Part shown: positions 59 through 29,472 of the stretch, piece by piece
Layout: each line of letters opens with the position of its first letter
Position numbering within the stretch: the stretch's first letter is position 1
Assembly: GCA_947167715.1 (NCBI GenBank)
Contig: CAMVJD010000009.1
Span: 1-64,000, forward strand
From: an uncultured Eubacteriaceae bacterium
Lineage (GTDB): Bacteria > Bacillota > Clostridia > Lachnospirales > CAG-274
Reading direction: 5' to 3'
DNA length: 64,000 nt
The notes under the pieces: model-generated
Database searches by the model: none
What the model saw: only the letters and a program-made list of their open reading frames with translations
Told to the model about the DNA's origin: nothing
Position numbers and translations under genes: made by a program

Positions 59-3000
59 TTACTCGTTTGTCAAATATACATACTCATAACCATATTGCTG
101 AGCATAAAATTCTGCTTGTGGGGTGCTTATATACAGGACGCAGCTCGCTTCCGCAATCGCACCTTCAAAGCTTTGTGTATTTGTGGGTATAACAAGTTTT
201 TCAAGTGCCGTACAGCCTCTGAATGTGTCACGCTGAAGCTTTTTAAGCGACGGCGGCAAGGTCACATCCGTCAGGGCAGTGCAGTTCATAAACGCAGAAT
301 CATATATTACCATAGATGGATTGTTTTCAAACACGACCGATTTCAGTTCTTTACAAAATGCAAAGGCATCTCCGTATATTTTGTTATAATTTTGAGGAAT
401 TACAACCTCCCTGATATTTGATGAACGGAAAGCGGACTCATCGACAGCGTTTATCCGTACACCGTTTACTTCCTCCGGCAGTGTGCCGCCTAAATAATCA
501 TCCGAGCAGCCCACTATTCTGCCTCTTGTCAAATCGACATAAATGGTTCCACTCGCTGTTTTATACGGATAATATGTGTCACTTGTTATGATTTCTGTTG
601 TTGTTTCGGTCGTCGTTTCTGTAGTGGTTTTTGTTGTAGTCTCTGTGGTTGATTCGATGGTGGTTTCTGTTGTGGTTATCAATTCGGCAGGCATTTTGTA
701 TGTGTCTACAAGTACTTTCTGCAATATCATTGCCGAATCACTTGCTGTCAAAACTCCGTCGGCATCGACATCAATATATCTCATATAATTATCGGTTTTG
801 CCTTCTATCGTCATTTTATAACTATCCACCAAAACTTTCTGTAAAACCATTGCCGAATCGCTTGCAGTCAGCACTCCGTCTGCATCGGCATCACCTATCA
901 CAAATCGTTCGTTATCAAGTGCCGTCAATGTGAAATTATCATAAAAAATAACGTCACTGCTGTTATTTCGCATTAAATAAGCGCTCTTAAAATTGGGCGA
1001 TGATATTCGTTCTTCGTCTATCGGTATATCATTTATATAATATCGTATAACACCCTTTTTCTTATTAACTTCTATTGCTAAGGTTCCCCAGTCATTAAAT
1101 GCCGATATGTATCGTTCCATATTTTCAAGATAAGTATCGCTTACTGTCTTGTAGGGATCCAAGGTCAGCGGATAGCTCTTGTTTTCCAACTTATCAACTT
1201 TTAAATCTACCGATACAATAAAATGTTCGGGGGTATACGGAAAATCGCATACATAAGGCCATGCATCGTTGCTGCCTATAGCTTCATTGGTCGCTACTCT
1301 TGTTTGATTTGAGCCCGTACCCTTAGTGGTAACTATTTTGTAATTACCGTGGTTTGTATGAAAGGTCTCCGTGTTTTCATCCGACTCAAAATCCTGCAAT
1401 GCAATAATTTCGCCCTTGTTTTTTCTCTCGTATCTTCCGAGGGTAACTATTTCTGTCAGGCTTTGTATTGCGGCATTTATTTCTTCATCGCTCGCAGCTT
1501 TATTTTTATAGACCTTTTCGGCATTGTTCAAAGCAGCTTTTATTCTGCTTTGAGAGTCATCTGTCAAATGGCTTATATCCATAGCTTTTATGCGGTCTAT
1601 ATCATCAAGAAGTGCCTTTTTAGTGCCGTATTTCAAGGAATTGACCGCAGAATAAATATCATCGGCAAGTGTCTTATAGTTTTCTTCATTCTTTTCTTCA
1701 AGCGCTTTCTTCCCGTCCAAAACAGCGTTATTCAGTAATTCTACACTTTCTTTTGTGTAGGGAATAGCGTCTGTAAGTTCCGCTTTTTCTATTGCGGCTT
1801 TAAGATATTCCTCGTCAGACATGATAAGTGTGTCAAGTGCGATTTTTAATTCGGCGGCCACATTATCTACCTGCGCCTGTGTCGGAGCGGTCAGGTCATA
1901 TACATTTTTTGCCTGTGTAAGTTTATTTTGCAGAGTTTCCCAATCCTTTACCGCAAAAAGTGTGGGATCGGCTTTTTCGGCACTTTTTATCAATGCTTTT
2001 AATTCATTAAAATTAACGCTATAACCCGCATAATGGTCTTTTATTATGTCATTTGCATAGTTTTCAAGGTTTGTGTAACCGTTTGCGGCAATATTGGCGC
2101 TGTCAAAAGCATTGGGGTCAAGACTGTTTGCCTGTTCCCATTTGTCGGGTATTCCGTCATTATCTGTATCGGCTTCTTTCACACCGTGCAAAGGTGTATA
2201 ACCGCCCACATCCTCGGGCGAGTCGATAAGCCCATAGCCCGAAGTATGTCCCGTCTGCATAGTGCCGTTGATAACGTCATTTATTATCCTTTGGTCGGTA
2301 TCATCCCTGAAATAGCTTGCGCCGACATTTTTCAAAACCGTATTGTACGCATCTTCCGCAGTCTGGGTATTTACAGGAAAATCGTTTATGTATTGATCGT
2401 TAGGCCAAAGCTTGCCGCTGTCGTCCGTAAAGCCGTCCGAAATGCTTTCGCATTTTGTTCCGTAATTTATATTTGCAACGCCCAGCCAGTTGTTTTCGGT
2501 CATATTGTCGCGGCCTTCCATTATATTTCCGTCAACGTGAATTGTTGTTCCGTACTTTTTGGAGCCCTGCCACACCTCGTAAAAGCGGATGTTTTTTGCT
2601 ATCGAGGTCGGCTTGTAATAGTTATTTACAAAATTTACCCTTACGCCGTTTTCGCCGCCGTAGCCTGCCTCTTCACGCCAGTTATAAAAAACATTGTTGC
2701 GTATATCCACAAGGCTTTCATAGTCGGGCGTACCTTGATATGAGCTTACGGTCGCACTCGTTCCTATCCTCGGCATACGGCTTTTATGCGATGATATAAG
2801 GTTATGGTGGAAGCTTGCGTTTATACCGCCCCAGATACCGCCGTAGCCGTGAGCGCCTTTGCTGTGATTTGAAACATTAAGGCTTTCGCTTATAATGCAG
2901 TATTGTGCAGTAAAATCCTTGTTTTCGTAAGCCGAAAGACACTCGTCCACCGACCAGTTCACAGAACAGTGATCGACAATAAAATTTGTACATTTTCTTA

Positions 3001-3445
3001 CGCCCAATCCATCCTCCTGCGAATAGCAGGTATCTCCCGGGCGTATGCGGATATATCTTAAAATAACATTATCACAGTTTGAAAACAAAACGCTTTCGCC
3101 CGCAATACAGATACCCTCTCCGGGTGCTGTCTGCCCGAGTATAGTTATATTGTCAATATCTTTTATATCCAAAATCGACTCCAGACGGACATTGCCCGCA
3201 ACATCAAAAACAACTATCCTGTTACCCTTTGATACCGCATCACGAAATGAGCCTTTGCCGCTGTCCTTAAGGTTTGTAACATGGTACACCTCAATATTCT
3301 CCGCCGCACGCGACCCCTTTGAATACATACCGCCACCCTCGGCACCGGGAAAGGCCGGCAGTTTGTCCGCCGCATAAGCAGGGCTGTTTACACAAGGCAT
3401 TGCCAAAGCCGCCGCAAGCATAAAAGACAATATTCTTTTTTTCAT
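59..3445 (-). CDS. Secreted pectate-lyase-like protein with dockerin pair, Thr/Glu-rich linker and C-terminal BspA-type (LRR_5) repeats
   Basis: Signal peptide MKKRILSFMLAAALAMPCVNSPAYA; FPGAEGGGMYSKGSRAAEN pectate-lyase N-terminus; GDADADGVLTASDSAMVLQKVL x2 dockerin repeats; TTETTTESTTETTT linker; DSAFMNCTALTDVTLPPSLKKL LRR_5-like repeats. Confidence 0.9.
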   Translation of the reverse strand: MKKRILSFMLAAALAMPCVNSPAYAADKLPAFPGAEGGGMYSKGSRAAENIEVYHVTNLKDSGKGSFRDAVSKGNRIVVFDVAGNVRLESILDIKDIDNITILGQTAPGEGICIAGESVLFSNCDNVILRYIRIRPGDTCYSQEDGLGVRKCTNFIVDHCSVNWSVDECLSAYENKDFTAQYCIISESLNVSNHSKGAHGYGGIWGGINASFHHNLISSHKSRMPRIGTSATVSSYQGTPDYESLVDIRNNVFYNWREEAGYGGENGVRVNFVNNYYKPTSIAKNIRFYEVWQGSKKYGTTIHVDGNIMEGRDNMTENNWLGVANINYGTKCESISDGFTDDSGKLWPNDQYINDFPVNTQTAEDAYNTVLKNVGASYFRDDTDQRIINDVINGTMQTGHTSGYGLIDSPEDVGGYTPLHGVKEADTDNDGIPDKWEQANSLDPNAFDSANIAANGYTNLENYANDIIKDHYAGYSVNFNELKALIKSAEKADPTLFAVKDWETLQNKLTQAKNVYDLTAPTQAQVDNVAAELKIALDTLIMSDEEYLKAAIEKAELTDAIPYTKESVELLNNAVLDGKKALEEKNEENYKTLADDIYSAVNSLKYGTKKALLDDIDRIKAMDISHLTDDSQSRIKAALNNAEKVYKNKAASDEEINAAIQSLTEIVTLGRYERKNKGEIIALQDFESDENTETFHTNHGNYKIVTTKGTGSNQTRVATNEAIGSNDAWPYVCDFPYTPEHFIVSVDLKVDKLENKSYPLTLDPYKTVSDTYLENMERYISAFNDWGTLAIEVNKKKGVIRYYINDIPIDEERISSPNFKSAYLMRNNSSDVIFYDNFTLTALDNERFVIGDADADGVLTASDSAMVLQKVLVDSYKMTIEGKTDNYMRYIDVDADGVLTASDSAMILQKVLVDTYKMPAELITTTETTIESTTETTTKTTTETTTETTTEIITSDTYYPYKTASGTIYVDLTRGRIVGCSDDYLGGTLPEEVNGVRINAVDESAFRSSNIREVVIPQNYNKIYGDAFAFCKELKSVVFENNPSMVIYDSAFMNCTALTDVTLPPSLKKLQRDTFRGCTALEKLVIPTNTQSFEGAIAEASCVLYISTPQAEFYAQQYGYEYVYLTNE

Positions 3446-3460
3446 CTTTATTCCCCTTTC

Positions 3461-6400
3461 TTACTTTTCGGCAGGCATAAAATATGACTCCTGCAAGGTC
3501 TTTTGCATTATCTCCGCCGCATCACTTGCGGTGATATATCTGTCCTTATCCACATCAATATATTTAAACCAATCATCGGTTTTATTTTGTATAGGCAGAA
3601 TGCTCTCTTCCGTAAGCGTTTTTTGCAGTACGAATGCGGCATCGCTTGCTGTTATACTGCCGTCCGCATCGGCATCGCCGTATAAAAACGGCTTATTCGA
3701 TACATTAAGCTTGAATATATTTATATTGCCAAGTCGGCTGCCCTTATTTTCAATAAAGGTATATAAATTATACGAATCGAGCTTTGGCGCGGAGAGGTCG
3801 CAGGCGGTAAGCTTTTTACAATTTCCCGCATTTTCCGTTATACATTTTTTATATACAAGCGCATTGTTTAAATATACGGTCAAAACCCCTGTTTCTTCAT
3901 TGTAATTGCTGTACACGGTGTTTCGTTTTCCCTCGACAAACGGTGGATTTTTTATATCATCGCTATTCAGGGTAAACTTTTTATTGTCAAACGCTATTCT
4001 CATATATCTGTCATCATCCACCGCATTATCCATTACAATACAGCAATCCCACTTATTTTCAAGCTCGTAGCGAAACAGCATAGTATCGGAGTTTTCGTCA
4101 TCAAGCATAAGATCCGCGGAAAGATATGTATCATTGTCAATTTTTTCAAGCGGCAGGGGGATAACGGTATCTATCGCGGGGCGAATATAGGTGCTGCCGT
4201 TTTCCGTAACATATTCGGCGTTTATATCCCCGCGCTTCGCTTCAAGATCCTCGGTATAAACGATCGACTTATAGCCGTCCTTGTATTCAAGCCCTATCAG
4301 CGCATTTTTGACCTTATCGTAAAACTTTAAGGCCGCATCATTTTCCCCGCTTTGGGTCTGCGACAGTTCAAGTCCCTCGGCTTTGAGTGTTTCTGCGTCC
4401 TTTTGGGACTTATCCGTTAAGCTGTCCCTTGCAAACAAGCCGTCCGACAGATAGAAAACAGCATTTTTTAATGTGGTATTATCCAAAAGCACCATTTTCT
4501 TTGACGTTTCATCAATTTTGCTCATCATATCGCGCATTTGTGCATTTGTGGCATCGGGGCTTGCGGCAAGCGCATCCGCCTCGTCTATCACCTGCTGCAT
4601 AAGCTGTGTCGAGGAGCTTGTATATCTGCCGCTTGTAATGTACTGCGCCCTTGCATCCTCTTTTTTTTGCTTAAATTCCTCCAAAAGCGATTCTTCAAGG
4701 CTGTCCAGAGCCGACTGCAAAAGCTCGGCATCTTCTTTGAAAAGCTCGTTGTCCTCTTCCTCTTCAAGGTCTGTTTTTGACTTATTAATTGCCGACATCA
4801 AAGCATCAAGGCTTTCGCGCGAATACTGCTGCGGCTCAAAGCCGCTTATTTTCTGTTCCGTTTCGGCAACAAGCCTTTCCAGAATATTTCTGTACCTTGG
4901 AACAAGCGAATCAAGCATATTATTCAGCTTTTCGGTCTCGTCGTTGATCTCGTCCTGATCTTCGCTTGTGCCGAGAATAATTTTTGCCGTTTCCGTTTCG
5001 GCATCTATCTTTTTTATATCCTCCTCTTCAAATTTCCACCTTTCAAGATACATGGAACGCGACACGGCAAGCCCCAATTCGACCCGGTTTACCTTAATTT
5101 CGGTAAAGCTTTCAACAAGGCTGTTTGCATACAGCTCAATATTTGTATATCCGCTTGATGATATCTGCGCCGCATCTGACGGGTCGTTTTTGTCAAGGCC
5201 GTTGTTATCCTCCCAGCTGTCGGGTATGCCGTCAAGGTCGGTATCCTCGGGCTTTTTTCCCCCTTGCAGCCAGCACCAGCCGCCCACATCGTATACGCTG
5301 TCAACAAAGCCTATACTGCCGTTGCTGCCGTTTGGATATACGCCGTTTTTAACATTTTTTACAACTCGCTCATCTATGGTATCACGGTGCAGGCTTGCAC
5401 CCGCATATTTCAAAACATCAGTGTACGCTTCTTCTGCGGTCTGCGTTTTTACGGGATAATCCGAAAGGTATTGATCGTTTGGCAGGAGAACCTCGGGAAC
5501 CTCTTTGTCGGTCTCTTCAAACCCGTGCATAACAACGCCTTTTTCCGAAATGTTTTCACGTTTTATCCACCAATATTGACCGTTGCTGAAAAAGTCAAGC
5601 CCTTTATAATTATCATCGGTAAGGTCCTTCATACCTTCCATTACATTTCCGCTTAAATGTAAGGTTGTCGATTGACTGTCAACACCGTCTATACAAGAAT
5701 TTCTTCCGCTGTAAAACTCGTAAAATGTATGCACTATTGCAATATCGGTCGGTTTAAAATAGTTGTTTACAAAATTTACCCTGACACCGTTTTCTCCGCC
5801 GTAGCCCGCATTTTTACTCCAACTGTATATAACATTGTTTCTTACATCGATAAGTGCTTCGGTATCGGGTACGGATGCACGTAGCGTTTCGGTCGAGCCT
5901 ATGCGCGGGTTTCTGCTTTCGTTATTTGCAAGCAGATTATGGTGAAAACTTGCATTTGTGCCGCCCCAAAGACCGCCGTAGCCGTGGGTGCCCTTTGCAT
6001 GGGTAGACTTGCGCAGTGCCTCGCTGATAATATTCCATTGTGCGGTAAAATCTGTGCTTCCGTACCAGCTTAAAAGCTCGTCCACAGACCAGCTTATCGA
6101 ACAATGGTCGATGATCACATTGCTGCAGCCCTTGCCGCCCAGACTGTCCTCGTAGCTGCCTTCGCCGCTTCTGAAACGCAGATAGCGTATAATGATATTG
6201 TCGGCATATTCAAACTGTACGGAATTGCCGCCTATACAAACCCCCTCACCCGGCGCGGTTTGTCCCAGTATCGTCAAATTGCTTGATTTTACTATTATTT
6301 TATTTTCAAGCATAATATTTCCCGCAACATCAAAAACTATTATTCGGTTACTTTGCGAAACCGCATCACGGAATGAGCCATCGCCGCTGTCATCCAAATT

Positions 6401-6583
6401 GGTAACGTGATAAATTTCGAAATTCTCCGCCGCACGCGCACCCTTTGTGTACATACCGCCGCCCTCCGCGCCGGGAAAGGCAAGCAGTTTATTTTCCGCC
6501 GCACAAATGTTGAACGAATTGCTGTCAATGCTGCCAAAAAACATAAATGCAGCAAGAAGCATAGAAAATACACGTTTTTTCAT
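3461..6583 (-). CDS. Secreted pectate-lyase-like protein with C-terminal dockerin
   Basis: FPGAEGGGMYTKGARAAENFEIYHVTNLDDSGDGSFRDAV; C-terminal GDADADGSITASDAAFVLQKTL...YIDVDKDRYITASDAAEIMQKTL. ORF track extends to 6634; ATG at 6583 has the signal peptide and a GGGAG SD. Confidence 0.9.
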   Translation of the reverse strand: MKKRVFSMLLAAFMFFGSIDSNSFNICAAENKLLAFPGAEGGGMYTKGARAAENFEIYHVTNLDDSGDGSFRDAVSQSNRIIVFDVAGNIMLENKIIVKSSNLTILGQTAPGEGVCIGGNSVQFEYADNIIIRYLRFRSGEGSYEDSLGGKGCSNVIIDHCSISWSVDELLSWYGSTDFTAQWNIISEALRKSTHAKGTHGYGGLWGGTNASFHHNLLANNESRNPRIGSTETLRASVPDTEALIDVRNNVIYSWSKNAGYGGENGVRVNFVNNYFKPTDIAIVHTFYEFYSGRNSCIDGVDSQSTTLHLSGNVMEGMKDLTDDNYKGLDFFSNGQYWWIKRENISEKGVVMHGFEETDKEVPEVLLPNDQYLSDYPVKTQTAEEAYTDVLKYAGASLHRDTIDERVVKNVKNGVYPNGSNGSIGFVDSVYDVGGWCWLQGGKKPEDTDLDGIPDSWEDNNGLDKNDPSDAAQISSSGYTNIELYANSLVESFTEIKVNRVELGLAVSRSMYLERWKFEEEDIKKIDAETETAKIILGTSEDQDEINDETEKLNNMLDSLVPRYRNILERLVAETEQKISGFEPQQYSRESLDALMSAINKSKTDLEEEEDNELFKEDAELLQSALDSLEESLLEEFKQKKEDARAQYITSGRYTSSSTQLMQQVIDEADALAASPDATNAQMRDMMSKIDETSKKMVLLDNTTLKNAVFYLSDGLFARDSLTDKSQKDAETLKAEGLELSQTQSGENDAALKFYDKVKNALIGLEYKDGYKSIVYTEDLEAKRGDINAEYVTENGSTYIRPAIDTVIPLPLEKIDNDTYLSADLMLDDENSDTMLFRYELENKWDCCIVMDNAVDDDRYMRIAFDNKKFTLNSDDIKNPPFVEGKRNTVYSNYNEETGVLTVYLNNALVYKKCITENAGNCKKLTACDLSAPKLDSYNLYTFIENKGSRLGNINIFKLNVSNKPFLYGDADADGSITASDAAFVLQKTLTEESILPIQNKTDDWFKYIDVDKDRYITASDAAEIMQKTLQESYFMPAEK

Positions 6584-10020: not shown

Positions 10021-10029
10021 ATACTTAAA

Positions 10030-10160
10030 AAAACTATTTCATTTTTGCCCCGATCGTGGTATACTTATTATATCATATCGGGGCTCTTTTAATGAAAAAA
10101 AGCATTTTATATGAGTGTTAAAAAACGAGACGGCAAAAATCAGATTTTGCCGGAAATCTT
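10030..10160 (+). pseudogene. Remnant of a tyrosine integrase gene start (upstream hairpin plus first codons), copy of 27975-28095
   Basis: 'ctatttcatttttgccccgat..' hairpin leader and 'atgagtgttaaaa.acgaga.cagcaaaaatc' match the leader and first codons of the intact integrase at 28060. Confidence 0.8.
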
Positions 10161-10310: not shown

Positions 10311-10621
10311 AAATAAAAAGGCAGAAATTTATATTTTGAAATGAGCTTCGATATGATAAACCACTAAAACCTGCAAGTTGCGGCTTGTGGGTTTTATTTT
10401 TCTGCCACGGGATATCAGTAAATCGTGACAGAAAAAATCGTCTTGAATTATTATTACGCATAAGAAGAAAATAATATAAAAAACCTACAAGATGTAATTA
10501 TCCAAGTTTTAAAACTTTAAATAGCCTTATAAATTTTAAATTATGTTTTTAAATTTAAAATTCAATTGACATATTTAAAATTTTGTGTTAATATTTTAAA
10601 TATAAGGCGGTGAAATTTAAA

Positions 10622-12064
10622 ATGAATGAGACAGAATTAAAAAATATTGTAAAAAGAATTCAAAATGCCCAAGCCGAGTTTCAAACAGTCGAAGTAAAAC
10701 GAAGCAAGACCAAGGCGACCGAAAGGCTGTTTGATACCTTATCCAGTTTCTCTAATCAGGATGACGGCGGCGTTATAGTGTTTGGCTTGTACGAAAGTGA
10801 GGGCTTTACCGTGACGGGTGTGGATGATGTTCAGGAACTTCAAAAAAGCGTGATGAATCAGTGTATGCAAATGGAACCTCCCGTAAGAGCTGTTTTTACG
10901 GTTGCGGAGATAGACGGGAAAAATGTTGTTTCGGCGGAAATACCGCCCATTGACATAACGGAACGCCCTTGTTTTTATAAAGGAAAAGGGCGACTTAAAG
11001 GGTCGTATGTGCGTGTTGGTGAAGCCGACCAGCCTATGAGTGAATACGAGGTGTACAGTTTTGAAGCGTACCGCAAAAAGTATCAGGATGATATTCGTAT
11101 CGTTGAAAGAGCGGAAATAACATCGCTTTCCGGCGATAAGCTTGAAAACTATCTGAAACTTTTAAAAACAGACAAGCCGAACCTCGGTAATCTTGAAGAC
11201 AATCAGATAATGGAACTTATGAGCGTTATAAGGGAGAACAAACCTACTCTTGCAGCAGAGTTTTTGTTTGGACTTTACCCACAGGCGTTCTTTCCTCAAC
11301 TCGGTATTATAGCGGTATCAGTTCCGGGTACAGAGGTCGGTGATACCGATGTCGATGGTTCAAGATTTATAGATAATCAGCGTATTGAGGGCACGATCCC
11401 CGAAATGGTAGATGCAGCACTGCATTTTGTTCGAAAGAATATCCGTAAAAAAACCATCGTCGATCCCGAAACGGGCAAACGCAACGATAAAATGGATTAC
11501 CCTATAAATTCCGTTCGTGAGGCGGTGCTTAATGCCCTTGTACACCGCGACTACAGTATTCACACAGAGGGTATGCCGGTGCAGCTCAGTATATTTGCAG
11601 ACCGTCTTGAAATAACAAATCCCGGTGGTCTTTACGGCAGGCTTACTATCGATACACTCGGCAAGATACAGCCCGACACAAGAAATCCCGTACTTGCCAC
11701 GGCGCTTGAAGTTATGGACGTTACAGAAAACCGCTATTCAGGTATACCGACAATACGCAGAGAACTGAAAGAACATGGTTTGCCCGCTCCCGAATTTCGC
11801 AATGAGCGCGGGGAGTTTACCGTATGTTTCAGACTTGGCGAAAAGAATGTGGATGCCGGTACGGGAAAAGATATAATCAATTTCTGTAAAATACCGAGAA
11901 CCCGCCAGGAAATAGCGGAGTATATCGGTCTTGGCTCGGTGACTTACGCAATGAAAAAGTACGTTCAGCCACTTGTGGATAGTAAAAAGATAAAACTGAC
12001 TATCCCCGATGCACCATCCAGCCCAAATCAGAAATATTATTCGGGAGCTGTTGCTGGAAATTAA
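10622..12064 (+). CDS. AlbA_2/Schlafen-like ATP-binding (putative DNA-binding) protein
   Basis: ETVEVKRSK...LSSFSNQDDGGVIVFGLYE AlbA_2 signature; SVREAVLNALVHRDYSIHTEGMPVQLSIFADRLEITNPGGLYGRLT HATPase_c_4-like region. SD AAGGCGGTGA favours ATG at 10622. Confidence 0.85.
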   Translation: MNETELKNIVKRIQNAQAEFQTVEVKRSKTKATERLFDTLSSFSNQDDGGVIVFGLYESEGFTVTGVDDVQELQKSVMNQCMQMEPPVRAVFTVAEIDGKNVVSAEIPPIDITERPCFYKGKGRLKGSYVRVGEADQPMSEYEVYSFEAYRKKYQDDIRIVERAEITSLSGDKLENYLKLLKTDKPNLGNLEDNQIMELMSVIRENKPTLAAEFLFGLYPQAFFPQLGIIAVSVPGTEVGDTDVDGSRFIDNQRIEGTIPEMVDAALHFVRKNIRKKTIVDPETGKRNDKMDYPINSVREAVLNALVHRDYSIHTEGMPVQLSIFADRLEITNPGGLYGRLTIDTLGKIQPDTRNPVLATALEVMDVTENRYSGIPTIRRELKEHGLPAPEFRNERGEFTVCFRLGEKNVDAGTGKDIINFCKIPRTRQEIAEYIGLGSVTYAMKKYVQPLVDSKKIKLTIPDAPSSPNQKYYSGAVAGN

Positions 12065-12402: not shown

Positions 12403-12774
12403 CTAATCTAAATATATATATGATTGTGGTGCCTGATTAACTCCAAAATCAATAAGTTTTTTAGGAGTTTCATATATTACAACATTTTTCAATTTATAGG
12501 CAAAAGCTTTATTTTTTCCATCATAATAGGAAAAATAGAATTTTTTAGTTATTCCGGCTGCGGTTTTTGCAATTTCCCAAATTTCTTCTGGTGTTCCCTC
12601 TAAAATCTTGTCTATAGTAGCTTCTCCGACGATTTGTTTTTGAGGGGATGAAGCATAGAAAATAATGCGGTCTACACAATTTTTAGGTTTGTTCTTTCTG
12701 AATTCATATTGTTTTTTTCCTTCTAATATTACTTTAGCATATTTTGGTTTAATCGATAATAACATTGTTGACAT
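12403..12774 (-). CDS. ASCH/PUA-like domain protein
   Basis: MLLSIKPKYAKVILEGKKQYEFRKNKP...IIFYASSPQKQIVGEATI, ASCH fold motif. Confidence 0.8.
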   Translation of the reverse strand: MSTMLLSIKPKYAKVILEGKKQYEFRKNKPKNCVDRIIFYASSPQKQIVGEATIDKILEGTPEEIWEIAKTAAGITKKFYFSYYDGKNKAFAYKLKNVVIYETPKKLIDFGVNQAPQSYIYLD

Positions 12775-13852
12775 TAATGTTACCCTCCCATAATATTTGT
12801 TTGAATTCGTTTGGTGAAAGTCTAATTAACGCGGGATATATACCCCCGTGGCTTTTACTCCAATATCCATTAGCTTCGAGTGTATTATTGTTAATATTAT
12901 TACCTTCACCAAAATAGCCATAATAGAGCATTTCTATGACGAACATATGATTATTATTATCATATTGCATTTTTAGTTCATCTTTATCAAATACCGACTT
13001 ATTGCTAATTCTTTGAAGTAGTTCACTAAAAGACATAAAGAATTTCCTGTTTTGTTTAACCATGATTACATCTGTAACAATACAAAAAGATGTAATACAC
13101 GATTTATATTTTTTTGAGCCTTCACCAGTGTGAATGCGGTAAATGAAAATAGGTTCTCCGATTTTATATGGTGGTTGGGTATATTGAGCTCCAACATAAA
13201 TCTTACTAAGACCATTTCTTACGTTTAGCGCAACGTAACTTTGTAAAGTATTTTTCAGTTCCGAATACGGAAACATAGTATCATGATAATTATCATTGAT
13301 TAGCAAGTAGCCTGCATTTTGAAAATTGGGATTTATAAATGGAAATGATTTATATGGATTAGAATAATCTACATTTTTTCTGCTTCTTAGATACACACCT
13401 TCGTTATTGGAGTTATAGCCAATTTTGTTAAATCCAAATTTTGTTAATTGGGAAATTAAAACATCTTGTTTGTCAAACGCCGTTACATATACTTCTTCAT
13501 GTTCCAGTTGTTGCCATTTCCATAGCACAAGGCCAATAGCCCCTTCTCCAAGACGTTGACCGCGAAAGCGTTCGGCAATTTTTATTGTACTTATTTTACA
13601 ACGCATTATTTCCGGTAAGGAGTGATTCTGAAGTATAATACTTTCTTTTTCTGATTTAATAGATATAAAAGCACCGAGGCCATCTTCATCATTAAAAACA
13701 AGTGCAGTTCTTCCTTCGTTTGCCTTCTCCACAAACCATTTATCAAACGAAGGTGTCTTATCATTACCGGGATAGTCAGACTTTAAAGAATCAAAAAAAT
13801 GATCATTCAAATCAATATCGCTAAATTTTTTGAGAGAAAATTTCCCCGCCAC
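12749..13852 (-). CDS. GNAT N-acetyltransferase with C-terminal PUA/EVE-like region
   Basis: KISTIKIAERFRGQRLGEGAIGLVLWKW acetyl-CoA loop; C-terminal KIGEPIFIYRIHTGEGSKKYKSCITSFCIV; overlaps the ASCH gene by 26 nt. Confidence 0.75.
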   Translation of the reverse strand: MAGKFSLKKFSDIDLNDHFFDSLKSDYPGNDKTPSFDKWFVEKANEGRTALVFNDEDGLGAFISIKSEKESIILQNHSLPEIMRCKISTIKIAERFRGQRLGEGAIGLVLWKWQQLEHEEVYVTAFDKQDVLISQLTKFGFNKIGYNSNNEGVYLRSRKNVDYSNPYKSFPFINPNFQNAGYLLINDNYHDTMFPYSELKNTLQSYVALNVRNGLSKIYVGAQYTQPPYKIGEPIFIYRIHTGEGSKKYKSCITSFCIVTDVIMVKQNRKFFMSFSELLQRISNKSVFDKDELKMQYDNNNHMFVIEMLYYGYFGEGNNINNNTLEANGYWSKSHGGIYPALIRLSPNEFKQILWEGNINVNNVIID

Positions 13853-14134
13853 AAGTAGTTCCTCCTTAAAGTTGCTAAATACATCAAATTAACGGTAACA
13901 TTATTATATCTCTAAAATACAATCTGACTAAAGCTTATAATATTAGAAATAAAAACAACAGTTTTTAATAAATAATTTGACAGTTCATCACTATTTAATC
14001 ATTATAACAGATTAAACAGTAGAATTCAAGAGAAATATGATAATCTGTAATTATATAAATATAATTTTAGGGTTTTCAAATTTTTAATTCTATTGTATAA
14101 TATGATTATATAGATTTACTATTGAGGTTGATTT

Positions 14135-14971
14135 ATGAGAAATAATAAAATGAGATTTTCAGATTCGCTAGAAATATATAATTTATTTAAAAATAAAAAT
14201 TGGCAGATAGTTGAAGACAATAAGCATAGTTTATTTAATCGCTTTGTTAACCTGTTTAATTCTCTTAATGATGATAAACAGAGAAAATTATTAATAAAAC
14301 TTGCCAGTGAATATAAAACAATTCGTTTGGAACAATATAAAGAAAAAATGATAACAATCCTAAAACAGATCATAAAGAATGAATTTTCGCAATCACGGGC
14401 TATAAATATTATGCCTATCAAACTGCAAGAAGACCAATATACTGTTAAAAGTTCAGATTTTGTTAGTTATTTAATTAATTTAATTGATTTTAAATATGAA
14501 GATGAATTAGGTAGTAAAAATTATCATATAATAGGTTCGTTTTCTGAATTGAAAAAGAATAAAAATAAATTTCAAAGTAAAGATATTATAATAATAGATG
14601 ATTTTATAGGAAGTGGAGAATATGCATCAGGCGTTATAAAAGAAATAAACGATTTAGGAATAAACAATAAAAACATCATCATAACATCTTTATTTATAAC
14701 ACAAAGAGCGATTAATGTTTTATCCAGCTTAACCCCTAAAATTAAACTGTATTATGGAGAAATCGCTGAATCTCTTTTAAATTCTATTGATGAAAGTGAA
14801 AAAGAAACATTATTAGAAATAGAAAAATTACTAAATATTGATGGAAAATTTAGTCTGGGGTATGGTCAATGTGGATGCGGTATTACATTGATTAGAACGC
14901 CTAATAATACATTGCCTTTATTTTGGGTTGACGATAAGAATAAAACTAGAGCCCCATTCCCAAGAAATTGA
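14135..14971 (+). CDS. Retron-associated phosphoribosyltransferase-like protein (PRTase-CE type)
   Basis: IIIIDDFIGSGEYASGVIKEI, PRTase PRPP-loop-like motif (DDxxGSG); C-terminal FSLGYGQCGCGITLIRTPNNTLPLFW; immediately upstream of wHTH, ncRNA and retron RT. Confidence 0.8.
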   Translation: MRNNKMRFSDSLEIYNLFKNKNWQIVEDNKHSLFNRFVNLFNSLNDDKQRKLLIKLASEYKTIRLEQYKEKMITILKQIIKNEFSQSRAINIMPIKLQEDQYTVKSSDFVSYLINLIDFKYEDELGSKNYHIIGSFSELKKNKNKFQSKDIIIIDDFIGSGEYASGVIKEINDLGINNKNIIITSLFITQRAINVLSSLTPKIKLYYGEIAESLLNSIDESEKETLLEIEKLLNIDGKFSLGYGQCGCGITLIRTPNNTLPLFWVDDKNKTRAPFPRN

Positions 14972-14988: not shown

Positions 14989-15297
14989 ATGGACTATGAT
15001 ATAAATGATATACTATTATTATTAGTTTCAATAAAAAAAACAGATCTCATATCGGATTATTTATTTGAAAACTTAGGTACTCTTAAAATTGCTAAAATAT
15101 GCGAATTTGCATTAGAAAACAATTACATAATTAATAACAATGGAATGTATTCTTTAACAAGCGATGGAGAAAACTATATAGAAAAGCTAAACAAAGATTT
15201 GAAAAAAAGGGGAATAGACAAGTGGATTGTGATTCCATCTAATTATAAAATCGACAAAATATCATTAGAATATATTTACTTACCTAACAAAATATGA
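14989..15297 (+). CDS. Small putative winged-helix protein of retron locus
   Basis: 102 aa; IAKICEFALENNYIINNNGMYSLTSDGENYIEKLNK resembles a wHTH with beta-wing; 17 nt after the PRTase stop. Confidence 0.6.
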   Translation: MDYDINDILLLLVSIKKTDLISDYLFENLGTLKIAKICEFALENNYIINNNGMYSLTSDGENYIEKLNKDLKKRGIDKWIVIPSNYKIDKISLEYIYLPNKI

Positions 15298-15303
15298 TAT
15301 AAT
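15298..15303 (+). promoter_or_regulatory. Candidate -10 box (TATAAT) for the retron ncRNA
   Basis: Perfect TATAAT 7 nt before the candidate ncRNA start (about 15310-15311). Confidence 0.55.
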
Positions 15304-15309
15304 ATATTT

Positions 15310-15522
15310 AGTGTTTTGCAAGTGTGTGATTTCCCTGAAATCTAGTAATACGAGTCGTATTGCGAATGTAATGTATGTTTCAAGCCCTGCAAGCAGAATT
15401 CTTTCGAAAGGGATTTCAAAATAATTCTGCTTTGCATGCAACAACTTAAGTTGTTGCACACGACATACGATGAAAGTTTATGCTTTCATCGTATGTCGTA
15501 GGATATTTTTAGTTGCAACACA
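15310..15522 (+). ncRNA. Retron msr-msd ncRNA
   Basis: a1 GTGTTTTGCAA (15311-15321) pairs with a2 TTGCAACAC (15513-15521) with 2-nt bulge; msr hairpins GATTTC-CCT-GAAATC (15328-15342) and AATACG-AGT-CGTATT (15347-15361); AAGCAGAATT/AATTCTGCTT stem (15391-15400/15423-15432); 22-nt palindrome 15437-15458; perfect 16-bp hairpin 15461-15498; located just 5' of the RT. Confidence 0.88.
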
Positions 15523-15541
15523 TCTATCTGAGGCGATAAAA

Positions 15542-16585
15542 ATGGATAAAAATCAATATATTAATGCATTACAGCAAAAATGCAAAGAAACCAAAAAAAG
15601 TGATAAATACACAACCAAAGTAATTAAATATGCAGAAAACCTACTAGAAAAAGGTATGCCAGTTATTTTTGATCCTACTCATTTTAGTATGCTTGTAGGA
15701 TATAAGACAGAATTTCTATACGCAATAACAAATAGTCAATCGGATTTTTATAGGCATTTTAAAATTCCTAAAAAAAATGGCAAAAAACGTTGTATTTCAG
15801 AACCGTTGCCGGCTCTTAAAGAAATCCAATATTTTATTTTAAATAATATTTTATTAAATGATAAATGCCACGATTGTTCAAAAGCATACAGAAAAAATGT
15901 ATCTATTAGAGACAATGCGAGATTTCATCGAAACCAAAAGATAATTTTAAAAATTGATATTAAGGATTATTTTCCTTCTTTATCAGAGTCTTTAGTTTTT
16001 GATTATTTCACAAGTCTTGGATATAGCAAAGCTTTGACAACTCTATTGACGAAATTATGTGTTCTTGACCATGGGTTGCCTCAGGGAGCACCAACAAGTC
16101 CATATTTGTCCAATCTTTTAACCCAAAAAATGGATAATATGATTTTTGAATTATGTAGAAAGAATACTTCTCCTTTGCGATATACACGATATGCTGATGA
16201 TATTACAATATCTGGTGACTTTGATGTTAAAGAAATAATAAAAAAAACATTGACAATTATATATAATAATGGCCTTACTCCTAATTATGATAAAATATCA
16301 GTAATTAGAGATAATAAAAGCCAAATAGTTACCGGCATTGCAGTAAACAAGGTTATCCAGGCTCCTAAAAATTATCGTAAAGATATCCGTAAGCAGATGT
16401 ATTATATAAATAAATTCGGAATAATAGAACATATTAAATATTCAAAAATTGATTTGCCACCCCAAAAGTTCTGTCAACAGTTATTGGGAAAAATAAATTA
16501 TTGCCTACAGATTAATAATAAAGATAGTGAAATGATAAAATATAAGGATGATTTAACAAAAATTATCAAACAAAACTTGTTATAA
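15542..16585 (+). CDS. Retron reverse transcriptase
   Basis: NARFH (NAxxH, 15914-15928), GLPQGAPTSPYLSNL, YTRYADDITISG (YADD 16190-16201), IVTGIAVN (VTG 16328-16336). ORF track start 15470 lies inside the msd hairpin; ATG at 15542 has upstream GAGG. Confidence 0.96.
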   Translation: MDKNQYINALQQKCKETKKSDKYTTKVIKYAENLLEKGMPVIFDPTHFSMLVGYKTEFLYAITNSQSDFYRHFKIPKKNGKKRCISEPLPALKEIQYFILNNILLNDKCHDCSKAYRKNVSIRDNARFHRNQKIILKIDIKDYFPSLSESLVFDYFTSLGYSKALTTLLTKLCVLDHGLPQGAPTSPYLSNLLTQKMDNMIFELCRKNTSPLRYTRYADDITISGDFDVKEIIKKTLTIIYNNGLTPNYDKISVIRDNKSQIVTGIAVNKVIQAPKNYRKDIRKQMYYINKFGIIEHIKYSKIDLPPQKFCQQLLGKINYCLQINNKDSEMIKYKDDLTKIIKQNLL

Positions 16586-16878: not shown

Positions 16879-19800
16879 TTAATCAGTTGTCAGATACACA
16901 TATTCATATCCGTTTTGCTGGGCATAAAATTCCGCCTGCGGGCTGCTTACATAAAGTATACAGTCCGGTTCCGCTATCATTCCCGAGAATTGTTGTGTGT
17001 TTGTCGGTATCACAAGTTTTTCAAGGGAAGTACAGCCTTTGAATGTGTTTTGCATCCTCTTTAAAGACGGCGGCAATGTTACATCCGTCAGGGCGGTACA
17101 GTTCATAAATGCCGAATTATATATTGTCATAGAAGGATTATCTTCAAATATAACCGATTTTAGTTTTTTGCAGTTTTTAAAAGCACCCGACGCTACCGTA
17201 TTATAGTTTTGAGGAATTATTATATCTTCAATATCGGAATTTGCAAAAGCATCCGATTCAACATAATTTATCGTCACTCCATTCACTTCTTCGGGTAAAG
17301 CTCCTCCCGAATAATCATCCGCACAGTCAACTACCATTCCGTTTATAAGATCGACAAATATTGTTCCGTTTGCGGTCTTATACGGATAATAAGTATCGCC
17401 CGTGGTGGTCTCGGTGGTGGTTTCTTCCGTGGTCGTTTCGGTAGTGGTCTCTGTGGTTGATTCGGTTGTGGTTTCGGTTGTGGTTATCAATTCGGCAGGC
17501 ATTTTATAAGTGCTGACTAAAACCTTTTGTAGAATAACCGCCGAATCACTTGCAGTTATCACACCATCCGCATCCGTATCTATATAGTACAGATAATTAT
17601 CGGTCTCATTTTCAATAGGCAGAGTGAAAGTTGATACAAGAACTTTCTGTAAAACCATTGCCGAATCACTTGCAGTCAAAACTCCGTCTGCATCTGCATC
17701 GCCTATCACAAATCGTTCGTTATCAGGTGCCGTTAATGTGAAATTATCATAAAAAATAATATCACTGCTATTGTTTCTCATTAAATAAGCACTATTGAAA
17801 TTGGGCGATGATATTCGTTCTTCGTCTATCTGTATATCATTTATATAATATCGTATAATACCCTTTTTCTTATCAACTTCTATTGACAAAGTTCCCCAAT
17901 CGTCAAATGCCGATATATATCGTTCCATACTTTCAAGATAAGTATCGCTTACTGTCTTGTAAGGATCTAATGTCAACGGGTAACTCTTATTTTCCAATTT
18001 ATCAACTTTTAAATCTGCCGATACAATAAAATGTTCGGGAGTATACGGAAAATCGCATACATAAGGCCATGCACTGCCGCTGCCCATAGCTTCATTGGTC
18101 GCTACCGATGTTTGATTTGACCCCGTTCCTTGCGTTGTAATTATCCTGTAGTTTCCGAAACTTGAATGGAAAACTTCCGTATTTTCGTCGGATTCAAAAT
18201 CCTGCAAAGCAATAACTTCACCTTTGTTTTTTCGCTCGTATCTTCCGAGAGTTACTATTTCAATAACACTTTGTACTGCGAGATCTATTTCTTCATCTGT
18301 TGCATCAGCGTTTTTATAGACCTTTTCGGCATTATTCAAAGCGGTTTTTATTCTGCTTTGAGAGTCCTCTGTCAAATAGCTTAGATCCTTTGCTTTTATG
18401 CGGTCTATTTCGTCAAGAAGCGCCTTTTTTGTGCCGTATTTCAAGGAATCGATCGCAGAATAAATATCATCGGCAAGTGTCTTATAGTTTTCTTCATTCT
18501 TTTCTTCAAGCGCTTTCTTCCCGTCCAAAACAGCGTTATTCAGTAATTCTACACTTTCTTTTGTGTAGGGAATAGCGTCTGTAAGTTCCGCTTTTTCTAT
18601 TGCGGCTTTAAGATATTCCTCGTCAGACATGATGAATGTATCAAGTACGGTTTTTAATACTGCGGCCGCATTATCCACCTGCGCCTGTGTAGGAGCGGTA
18701 AGGTCATAAATTCTTTTTGCCTGTGCAAGTTTATCCTGCAAGGCTTCCCAATCTTTTGACGAGAAAAACATAGGGTCGGCATTCTCTGCCTTTTTTATCA
18801 ATGCTTTTAATTCATCAAAATCAACGCCATAGCCCGCATAATAACCTTTTATTATGTCATTTGCATAGTTTTCAAGGTTTGTATAACCGTTTGCAGCTAT
18901 ATTGGTGCTGTCAAAAGCATTGGGGTCAAGGCTGTTTTTATTTTCCCATTCATCGGGTATGCCGTCACTGTCTGTGTCAAGTTTCTTCGTGCCATGCAAA
19001 GGCGTATAACCACCGACATCATCGGGTGAGTCGATAAGCCCATAGCCCGAAGTATGTCCCGTCTGCATTGTGCCGTTGATAACATCGTTTATTATCCTTT
19101 GGTCGGTATCATCCCTGAAATAGCTTGCGCCGACATTTTCCAATACCGTATTATACGCATCTTCCGCAGTCTGAGTATTTACGGGATGATCCGATATATA
19201 TTGGTCATTGCGCCAAAGAGTTCCCTTGTCATCGGTAAAGCCGTCCGAAATACTTTCGCATTTTGTTCCGTAACCGATATTTGAAACGCCGAGCCAGTTG
19301 TTTTCGCTTATACTGTCGCGCCCTTCCATTACATTCCCGTCAACGTGTATTGTTGTTCCGTATCTCTTTGAACCCTGCCACACATCATAAAAACGGATAT
19401 GTTTTGCTATTGATGACGGCTTGTAATAGTTATTTACAAGATTTACTCTGACGCCGTTTTCGCCGCCGTAGCCTGCTTCATCACGCCAGTTATAAAAAAC
19501 ATTGTTGCGTATATCAACAAGACTTTCATAGTCGGGTGTGTCCTGATATGAGTGTACGGTTTCGCTTGTGCCTATTCTCGGCATACGGCTTTTGTGCGAG
19601 GATATAAGATTATGATGAAAACTTGCGTTTATACCGCCCCAGATACCGCCGTAGCCGTGAGCACCTTTGCTGTGATTTGAAACATTAAGGCTTTCGCTTA
19701 TAATGCAGTATTGTGCAGTAAAATCCTTGTTTTCGTAAGCCGAAAGACACTCGTCCACCGACCAGTTCACAGAACAGTGATCGACAATAAAATTTGTACA

Positions 19801-20259
19801 TTTTCTTACGCCCAATCCATCCTCCTGCGAATAGCAGGTATCTCCCGGGCGTATGCGGATATATCTTAAAATAACATTATCACAGTTTGAAAACAAAACG
19901 CTTTCGCCCGCAATACAGATACCCTCTCCGGGTGCTGTCTGCCCGAGTATCGTGATATTGTCAATATCTTTTATATCCAAAATCGACTCCAGATGGACAT
20001 TGCCCGCAACATCAAAAACAACTATTCTGTTACCCTTTGAGACCGCATCACGGAAAGAGCCTTTCCCGCTGTCGTTTAGGTTTGTAACATGATACACCTC
20101 AATATTCTCCGCTGCCCTTGCTCCCAAAGAATACATACCGCCGCCCTCTGCACCGGGGAAGGCAACTATTTTTTCTTCGGCATATATGTATGCGCAATTT
20201 ACAGAAGTAAAAAGCAATACTGCCGATAATAAGATACTGATACTTTGTTTAAATTTCAT
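16879..20259 (-). CDS. Secreted pectate-lyase-like protein with dockerin pair, Thr/Glu linker and LRR_5 C-terminus (paralog of 59-3445)
   Basis: Nearly collinear protein with 59-3445; GDADADGVLTASDSAMVLQKVL and ETTTETTTEETTTETTT linker. Confidence 0.9.
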   Translation of the reverse strand: MKFKQSISILLSAVLLFTSVNCAYIYAEEKIVAFPGAEGGGMYSLGARAAENIEVYHVTNLNDSGKGSFRDAVSKGNRIVVFDVAGNVHLESILDIKDIDNITILGQTAPGEGICIAGESVLFSNCDNVILRYIRIRPGDTCYSQEDGLGVRKCTNFIVDHCSVNWSVDECLSAYENKDFTAQYCIISESLNVSNHSKGAHGYGGIWGGINASFHHNLISSHKSRMPRIGTSETVHSYQDTPDYESLVDIRNNVFYNWRDEAGYGGENGVRVNLVNNYYKPSSIAKHIRFYDVWQGSKRYGTTIHVDGNVMEGRDSISENNWLGVSNIGYGTKCESISDGFTDDKGTLWRNDQYISDHPVNTQTAEDAYNTVLENVGASYFRDDTDQRIINDVINGTMQTGHTSGYGLIDSPDDVGGYTPLHGTKKLDTDSDGIPDEWENKNSLDPNAFDSTNIAANGYTNLENYANDIIKGYYAGYGVDFDELKALIKKAENADPMFFSSKDWEALQDKLAQAKRIYDLTAPTQAQVDNAAAVLKTVLDTFIMSDEEYLKAAIEKAELTDAIPYTKESVELLNNAVLDGKKALEEKNEENYKTLADDIYSAIDSLKYGTKKALLDEIDRIKAKDLSYLTEDSQSRIKTALNNAEKVYKNADATDEEIDLAVQSVIEIVTLGRYERKNKGEVIALQDFESDENTEVFHSSFGNYRIITTQGTGSNQTSVATNEAMGSGSAWPYVCDFPYTPEHFIVSADLKVDKLENKSYPLTLDPYKTVSDTYLESMERYISAFDDWGTLSIEVDKKKGIIRYYINDIQIDEERISSPNFNSAYLMRNNSSDIIFYDNFTLTAPDNERFVIGDADADGVLTASDSAMVLQKVLVSTFTLPIENETDNYLYYIDTDADGVITASDSAVILQKVLVSTYKMPAELITTTETTTESTTETTTETTTEETTTETTTGDTYYPYKTANGTIFVDLINGMVVDCADDYSGGALPEEVNGVTINYVESDAFANSDIEDIIIPQNYNTVASGAFKNCKKLKSVIFEDNPSMTIYNSAFMNCTALTDVTLPPSLKRMQNTFKGCTSLEKLVIPTNTQQFSGMIAEPDCILYVSSPQAEFYAQQNGYEYVYLTTD

Positions 20260-27756: not shown

Positions 27757-27972
27757 TTGAAAATTGCAAATGACATTGCTTTACCGTGGTGGGAGAAATA
27801 CACATTGACAATAAAAGAGGCATCAATGTATTTCGGAATAGGCGAAAAGACTTTAAGGCGCTTTATCCGTGAACACAAGGACGAAAGTTTTGTGTTCTAC
27901 AACGGAACAAAAGCGCAGATAATCAAAAAGGATTTTGAAAAATATATAAGCAATAACCTTGCGGTCATTTAA
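27757..27972 (+). CDS. xis: Tn916-type excisionase
   Basis: LTIKEASMYFGIGEKTLRRFIREHKDESFVFYNGTKAQIIKKDFEKYI; directly upstream of integrase. Confidence 0.88.
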   Translation: MKIANDIALPWWEKYTLTIKEASMYFGIGEKTLRRFIREHKDESFVFYNGTKAQIIKKDFEKYISNNLAVI

Positions 27973-28059
27973 AATTACTATTTCATTTTTGCCCCGATTG
28001 TGATATACTGTTTATATATCATATCGGGGCTCTTTCTATGAAAGGAAAGGAGCATTACT

Positions 28060-29271
28060 ATGAGTGTTAAAAGACGAGACAGCAAAAATCGCATTTTACA
28101 CAACGGAGAGAGCCAAAGAAGTGATGGCAGATATATGTACAAGTACACCGATAATTGGGGAAGGGTAAAATATATTTACAGTTGGAAACTTGTAAGAACA
28201 GACACTCTTCCTGTCGGTATAAAAGAAGATGTAGCTTTGAGGGATAAGATAAAGCAGCTGCAAAGAGATATGGATGACGGTATAGTCCCGTGTGGTGGAA
28301 ATTACACCGTGCTTGAACTTGTCAAAAAGTATTTGTCGCAGAAAACAGGCGTAAAAGAGAACACAAGAGCCAACTACAACTTTGTTCTCAATATTCTCAA
28401 AAAAGAGGATTTCAGCGGCAAAAGAATAGACAAAGTCAAGTTATCCGATGCAAAAGCGTTTCTCATTAAACTGCAAAGCGATGGCAGGGGTTACAGTTCC
28501 ATACATTCTATCAGAGGAGTGTTAAGACCCGCCTTTCAAATGGCTGTTGATGATGATTTGATACGCAAAAATCCCTTTGAGTTTCAGCTTGTGACGGTTG
28601 TTGTAAATGACAGCGTAACAAGAGAGGCGATTACAAGAAAACAGGAAAGAGCGTTTCTCGAATTTGTCAAAAACGATAAGCACTTCAGTAGGTATTATGA
28701 GGGTATTTACATACTGTTTCATACCGGACTGCGTATTTCGGAATTTGTCGGTCTGACAATAGATGATATAGACTTTAAAAATGATGTTATAAATGTTGAC
28801 CACCAGCTTCAGCGCAAAAGAAATATGGAGTACATAATAGAAACTACCAAAACCAACAGCGGAACAAGGCTTGTGCCTATGACAGCAGAGGTCAAGGAGT
28901 GTTTCAAGCGTATTATCGAAAACAGAAAAAGCCCGAGAAAAGAGCCTGTTGTCTATGGCAAGCGCAAAAAGGCATATAAGGGTTTTCTGTATTTGGATAA
29001 AAACAATATGCCTATGGTCGCACTGCATTGGGAAAAGTATTTTCAGCATATCTGTCATAAATATAATTCAATTTATAAGGAAGAAATGCCAAAGGTAACG
29101 CCGCACGTTTGCAGACATACATTTTGCTCGAATATGGCTAAAGCAGGGACTAATCCCAAGACTTTGCAGAAAATAATGGGTCATTCGGACATAGGGGTCA
29201 CGCTCAACACTTACACTCATTTAGGTGTGGATGATATCAAAAGTGAGATGCAGAAATTGTGTGATTGGTGA
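28060..29271 (+). CDS. int: Tn916-type tyrosine integrase
   Basis: HTGLRISEFVGLTIDDIDF, TPHVCRHTFCSNMAKAGTNPKTLQKIMGHSDIGVTLNTYTHL catalytic R-HxxR-H-Y. Confidence 0.96.
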   Translation: MSVKRRDSKNRILHNGESQRSDGRYMYKYTDNWGRVKYIYSWKLVRTDTLPVGIKEDVALRDKIKQLQRDMDDGIVPCGGNYTVLELVKKYLSQKTGVKENTRANYNFVLNILKKEDFSGKRIDKVKLSDAKAFLIKLQSDGRGYSSIHSIRGVLRPAFQMAVDDDLIRKNPFEFQLVTVVVNDSVTREAITRKQERAFLEFVKNDKHFSRYYEGIYILFHTGLRISEFVGLTIDDIDFKNDVINVDHQLQRKRNMEYIIETTKTNSGTRLVPMTAEVKECFKRIIENRKSPRKEPVVYGKRKKAYKGFLYLDKNNMPMVALHWEKYFQHICHKYNSIYKEEMPKVTPHVCRHTFCSNMAKAGTNPKTLQKIMGHSDIGVTLNTYTHLGVDDIKSEMQKLCDW

Positions 29272-29332: not shown

Positions 29333-29405
29333 GCGGTAAAAATGTGCCGAATTATGCCAAATTATACCAACTTGTTATTAAGGTAAAATGTCGGCAAAGT
29401 CGCAA

Positions 29406-29472
29406 AACAACGGCGTTTGGAAAGGTTTGAGAAAATGATAAAAATAATGTTCGTCTGCCACGGCAATATTTG
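29406..29472 (+). repeat. Direct repeat spanning the start of the intact LMW phosphatase gene (candidate attR)
   Basis: 63/67 match by eye to 10164-10230. Confidence 0.85.

Follow-up and report, generated by a model that had tools for sequence, protein, structure and literature searches.

A structured stretch of DNA lies immediately upstream of a reverse transcriptase (RT) gene in a 64,000-nt sequence from an uncultured Eubacteriaceae bacterium (hereafter, the window), raising the question of whether it encodes a retron noncoding RNA (ncRNA), as an earlier note had proposed, and where such an RNA would begin and end. The genes of the locus, which like all ncRNA features described below lie on the forward (+) strand, form a complete type III-A retron set, in the order phosphoribosyltransferase (PRTase), winged-helix (WH) protein, ncRNA (about 15311-15521) and RT. 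The 347-aa RT (15542..16585), whose ATG at 15542 is where the note had placed it, matches Pfam RVT_1 and the PADLOC RT_III-A model PDLC02942 (E = 1.9e-130), the best-scoring among all retron RT models. Its NARFH (N125-H129), YADD (Y217-D220) and VTG (V263-G265) motifs all fall in conserved columns. The putative effector (PRTase_III-A, PRTase-CE; 14135..14971) is recognized by PADLOC PDLC02931 (E = 1.5e-67) and Pfam PRTase-CE (E = 5.2e-14), and alignment with homologues shows an intact PRPP motif, IIIIDDFIGSG, and a retained C-terminal TPNNT..P..W...APFPR. A sequence search of the PRTase against solved structures returned no match; its AlphaFold model (pLDDT 77) has uracil phosphoribosyltransferases as top PDB folds, with a query TM of only 0.37. 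The WH_III-A partner (14989..15297; PADLOC PDLC02974, E = 2.1e-17) ends in a (D/E)xYLP motif conserved in its alignment; its single-sequence structure prediction (pLDDT 42) was too low for use.

Based on these genes and on the comparisons described below, we read the region as the msr-msd ncRNA belonging to a complete type III-A retron that most likely defends against phages by abortive infection, acting through the mechanism proposed below; we give this reading a probability of roughly 0.8. PRTase and WH genes likewise precede the ncRNA and RT in type III-A retrons as described by the PADLOC models and, experimentally, in Retron-Bpu1 and Retron-Ppe1 (PMC12548924), whose ncRNA sequences lie outside our comparison. 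The window's proteins have diverged far from those of the relatives found: the nearest RTs are 42-44% identical (loci L013, L014, L032, L033, L029 and L001), and the best match reaches 44% for the RT and about 29% for the PRTase. The order PRTase, WH, ncRNA, RT recurs in L013, L014, L032, L033 and L029, and the same gene families and order are present in L015, L036 and L030. L034 carries a III-A RT and ncRNA, and the upstream stretch examined there contains no PRTase or WH gene; a glucosamine-6-phosphate deaminase-like ORF is found in that stretch. Among viral contigs, a search with the single RT found no relatives, and one with an RT alignment found six distant loci only. Judged from these sequences, the window's element extends type III-A by one divergent member and is otherwise ordinary for its family.

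The ncRNA region folds at -82.8 kcal/mol, compared with -50.2 +/- 4.4 for shuffled sequences (z = -7.3). Sequence comparison supports an ncRNA predicted to extend from about 15311 to 15521 or 15523, closed by the arms a1 and a2 and containing two msr and three msd hairpins. Msr hairpin 1 (HP1; 15328..15342, GATTTC-CCT-GAAATC) has 6 bp and a CCT loop, and 16/1000 shuffles are as stable. The earlier note had described both msr hairpins as 6-bp stems; this holds for HP1, while HP2, with the core AATACG-AGT-CGTATT at 15347-15361, extends to 8 bp (15345..15363; 8/1000 shuffles as stable). The HP2 stem covaries and its CG-AGU-CG apex is conserved. The same hairpin, with apex CGAGUCG, is present in five Ec107-like loci (PADLOC PDLC03739; L016, L020, L026, L028 and L040), where, unlike in the window, no PRTase or WH gene was seen upstream; the window's RT scores far better as III-A than as Ec107-like. 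A (W)AGCC linker (15382..15386) between msr and msd, conserved in the linker comparison, marks the predicted region of the RT-DNA 3′ end.

For each of the three msd stems, none of 1000 shuffles was as stable. S1 contains the paired motifs AAGCAGAATT and AATTCTGCTT noted previously at 15391-15432, in a stem that is longer than had been described (15388..15436), with an internal loop, an RGGA apical loop (here GGGA) and covariation. S2 is a 22-nt perfect palindrome at 15437..15458, as reported. The terminal hairpin S3 is likewise present, and its dimensions differ from the 16 perfect base pairs first assigned to 15461-15498: we find 18 pairs (17 Watson-Crick and one G-U) around a 4-nt loop at 15460..15499. 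Downstream of S3, the sequence GATAT (15502..15506) precedes a2 and is predicted to form part of the template copied first; it is shared with L013, L032, L033 and L034, with GATAC in L014. The RGGA apex of S1 is common to the window and all five of these loci. In the portions of the retron literature consulted we found no description of this apex or of GATAT before a2; we do not claim them as new, as the figures and supplements of published III-A ncRNAs lie outside the comparison. No Rfam family matched above its gathering score anywhere in the window.

A hairpin of this kind followed by T-rich sequence could instead regulate the RT gene as part of a leader, attenuator or terminator, with S3 and the T-rich stretch ending transcription and the rest folding around it; a terminator scan does flag 15460-15499 plus AGGATATTTT as terminator-like. 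In relatives, however, the bases after S3 do not form a T tract (L032 has CGATATTATTCG and L033 has GAGATATGAATTTG), and termination leaves the conserved G residues flanking the arms, the msr hairpins and the S1 apex unexplained. We regard this possibility as very improbable.

Support for the retron fold also comes from homologous loci. A whole-ncRNA MAFFT alignment that included the window misaligned the msd and was rejected; we therefore built a model from five closer relatives with III-A-like RTs, leaving the window out (alignment A3; four of the five also carry PRTase and WH). In A3, 95.9% of cells are paired and 22 of the 30 pairs show two-sided changes, whereas sliding the partner by 1-3 columns reduces pairing to 28-43%. 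Covariation across homologous loci had been named in the earlier note as a check on its fold, and such compensatory changes are present. With filters off, the A3 covariance model scores 24.2 bits at 15328-15436 of the window, corresponding to E = 2e-5 for a 3-kb search space and 6e-4 for 92 kb. Because some reverse-strand matches at palindromic stems of training loci also reach 23-30 bits, this score lends support but does not decide the matter alone. Cmsearch with default filters missed the window. The model also recovers L001, L029, L035 and L015, each where its ncRNA was expected. Nine pairs in the window use letters of which both are unseen in the five A3 relatives. Using independent folds, stem arms pair with their own partner at 0.89-1.00 and with a relative's at 0.34-0.62 (0.98 versus 0.34 for lower S1 and 0.89 versus 0.37 for S3); as stem positions were taken from the folds, the first value is high by construction and the low cross-pairing is the informative number. 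Together, the III-A gene matches and these compensatory changes support the identification of the region as a retron ncRNA.

The boundaries of this RNA are set by a1 (GTGTTTTGCAA, 15311..15321) and a2 (TTGCAACAC, 15513..15521), both at the places originally given. The 9-bp pairing with a 2-nt bulge described for them is one of two that are nearly isoenergetic (-80.2 kcal/mol, ending at 15521, versus -80.8 kcal/mol for 10 bp with one 1x1 mismatch, ending at 15523); a2 may accordingly stop at either of these two positions. A free search for a1/a2 arms in the window recovers the same arms, as it does equally well in 107 of 200 shuffles, which is within chance alone; the boundaries thus rest on sequence comparison with homologues rather than on pairing by itself. 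In all 14 ncRNAs compared, a G directly follows a1 and another directly precedes a2 (here G15322 and G15512), a count that overstates independence because boundaries were placed partly by eye using these G residues and the pairing. The earlier note's map agrees with distant relatives almost to the base, and the inner boundary of a1 is backed by these homologues. The a1/a2 pair beside the G is A-U in 12/14 ncRNAs; the second is U-A in 9/14 and A-U in the window, a compensatory swap. G15322, the predicted branching (priming) G of the msr, aligns with the candidate branch G in each of 13 relatives, but its context is AAGT, unlike the TAGC usual for retrons and the UAG seen in most of these relatives. 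G15512 would face it, and the RT-DNA would begin at 15511 or 15512.

The unusual priming context, together with the short a1/a2, the divergent linker and the weak model score, might indicate a genuine retron that has decayed into an inactive relic. All three ORFs are intact, however, including the YADD, NAxxH and VTG motifs of the RT and the PRPP motif of the PRTase, and the stems carry compensatory changes that decay would not preserve. We therefore think it improbable that the locus is defunct.

Transcription initiation is the weakest element of the map. The TATAAT box that the earlier note had called at 15298-15303 is present within an extended -10 element, TGATATAAT (15295..15303), whose TGA is the WH stop codon and whose predicted +1 lies at about 15310. 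The -10 box by itself is marginal (p = 0.06), and the -35-like TTTACT (4/6; 15275..15280) 17 nt before it is alone not beyond chance. Promoter-like sites show no excess in the surrounding 3.1 kb (27 versus 23.0 +/- 5.5 expected). Among the loci compared, only L013 and L014 share with the window an TGATATAAT placed on the WH stop codon. The spacing between this element and a1 varies among the three, so a +1 exactly at a1, as first suggested, is plausible here from the sequence but not general. Across the 14 loci, a -10 box within a fixed spacing range has a combined p of 0.52; we dropped the general promoter claim for these ncRNAs accordingly, retaining only the TGATATAAT coincidence.

These promoter results bear on whether the retron ncRNA has other functional ends, with transcription entering from upstream of the PRTase gene, no promoter at 15298 and the 5′ or 3′ ends generated by processing. 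A promoter-like site at 14073-14101 before the PRTase gene and the lack of a good -10 before a1 in several relatives are consistent with this arrangement. Against it, the window shares TGATATAAT at the end of the WH gene with L013 and L014, although the proteins of these loci are otherwise far diverged. We judge such processed ends rather unlikely, though worth keeping in mind.

Under our preferred reading of the region as a functional III-A msr-msd, the ncRNA could have a promoter of its own, the extended -10 that overlaps the WH stop codon. The RT would dock on the a1/a2 stem and msr hairpins, and the 2′-OH of G15322 would prime synthesis at about 15511/15512, a mechanism that follows retron biology (PMC6868368). 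If copying runs back to about 15385, the product would be a three-hairpin RT-DNA of about 125 nt. Its stems may then be bound by the WH protein, which would help to silence the PRTase within a complex of RT and RT-DNA. A phage that disturbs the RT-DNA or the contact made by WH could release the PRTase, whose action on PRPP or nucleotides would stop growth. Our working analogue is Retron-Kva2, a type IX system that likewise has an operon of winged-helix protein, RT, ncRNA and separate toxic effector, and in which msDNA is bound by the WH protein and the effector is held captive by the complex (PMC13405049). The two belong to different retron types, and the Kva2 effector is a HEPN RNase where that of the window is a PRTase. 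The closest RT with a solved structure is that of the type II-A Retron-Eco1 (Ec86; E = 1.4e-36), whose msr-msd follows the same overall layout, including a priming G immediately downstream of a1; this retron is again of another type, with an RT only distantly related to the window's and a nucleoside deoxyribosyltransferase-like effector. Phage defence by type III-A retrons is an expectation: in PMC12548924, Bpu1 makes RT-DNA in E. coli and, as the sole III-A retron challenged with phages there, gave no defence against the panel, and Ppe1 could not be transformed into E. coli.

A broader and more tentative proposal, which we would sooner doubt than expect to hold as a whole, joins several of these features. 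It describes a subfamily absent from Rfam in which a three-hairpin RT-DNA, with the conserved RGGA (DNA: TCCY) loop on its first stem, serves as a docking and sensing surface specific to the WH/PRTase effector, and in which transcription of the ncRNA starts from an extended -10 within the WH stop codon. If true, the restraining RNA would be made independently of the effector, via its own promoter at the WH stop codon. The covariation-backed map makes predictions at single-base level that offer targets for mutation and sequencing, namely the predicted branch residue G15322, the facing G15512, the RGGA loop and a predicted RT-DNA of about 125 nt, and the covariance model can find divergent relatives.

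The locus looks acquired, since a search for the RT in five genomes of the same genus gave no match at E <= 1e-30. The segment from about 13.5 to 16.5 kb has a G+C content of 25-28%, with roughly 34-45% in the flanks further out. Adjoining the retron on the opposite strand is a candidate defence pair, PDC-M11B (with an ASCH domain) and PDC-M11A (12403-13852, -), and upstream of the defence genes lies an ORF resembling a Schlafen AlbA_2/RecG-C-like ATPase (10610-12064, +). On the minus strand, a large ORF (16882-20259) is accompanied in the window by two further versions (65-3439 and 4538-6577), one 84% and the other 47% identical, probably through duplication. An intergenic repeat of 84% identity is also found at 10025-10148 and 27969-28097, with a partial further copy at 29404-29472.
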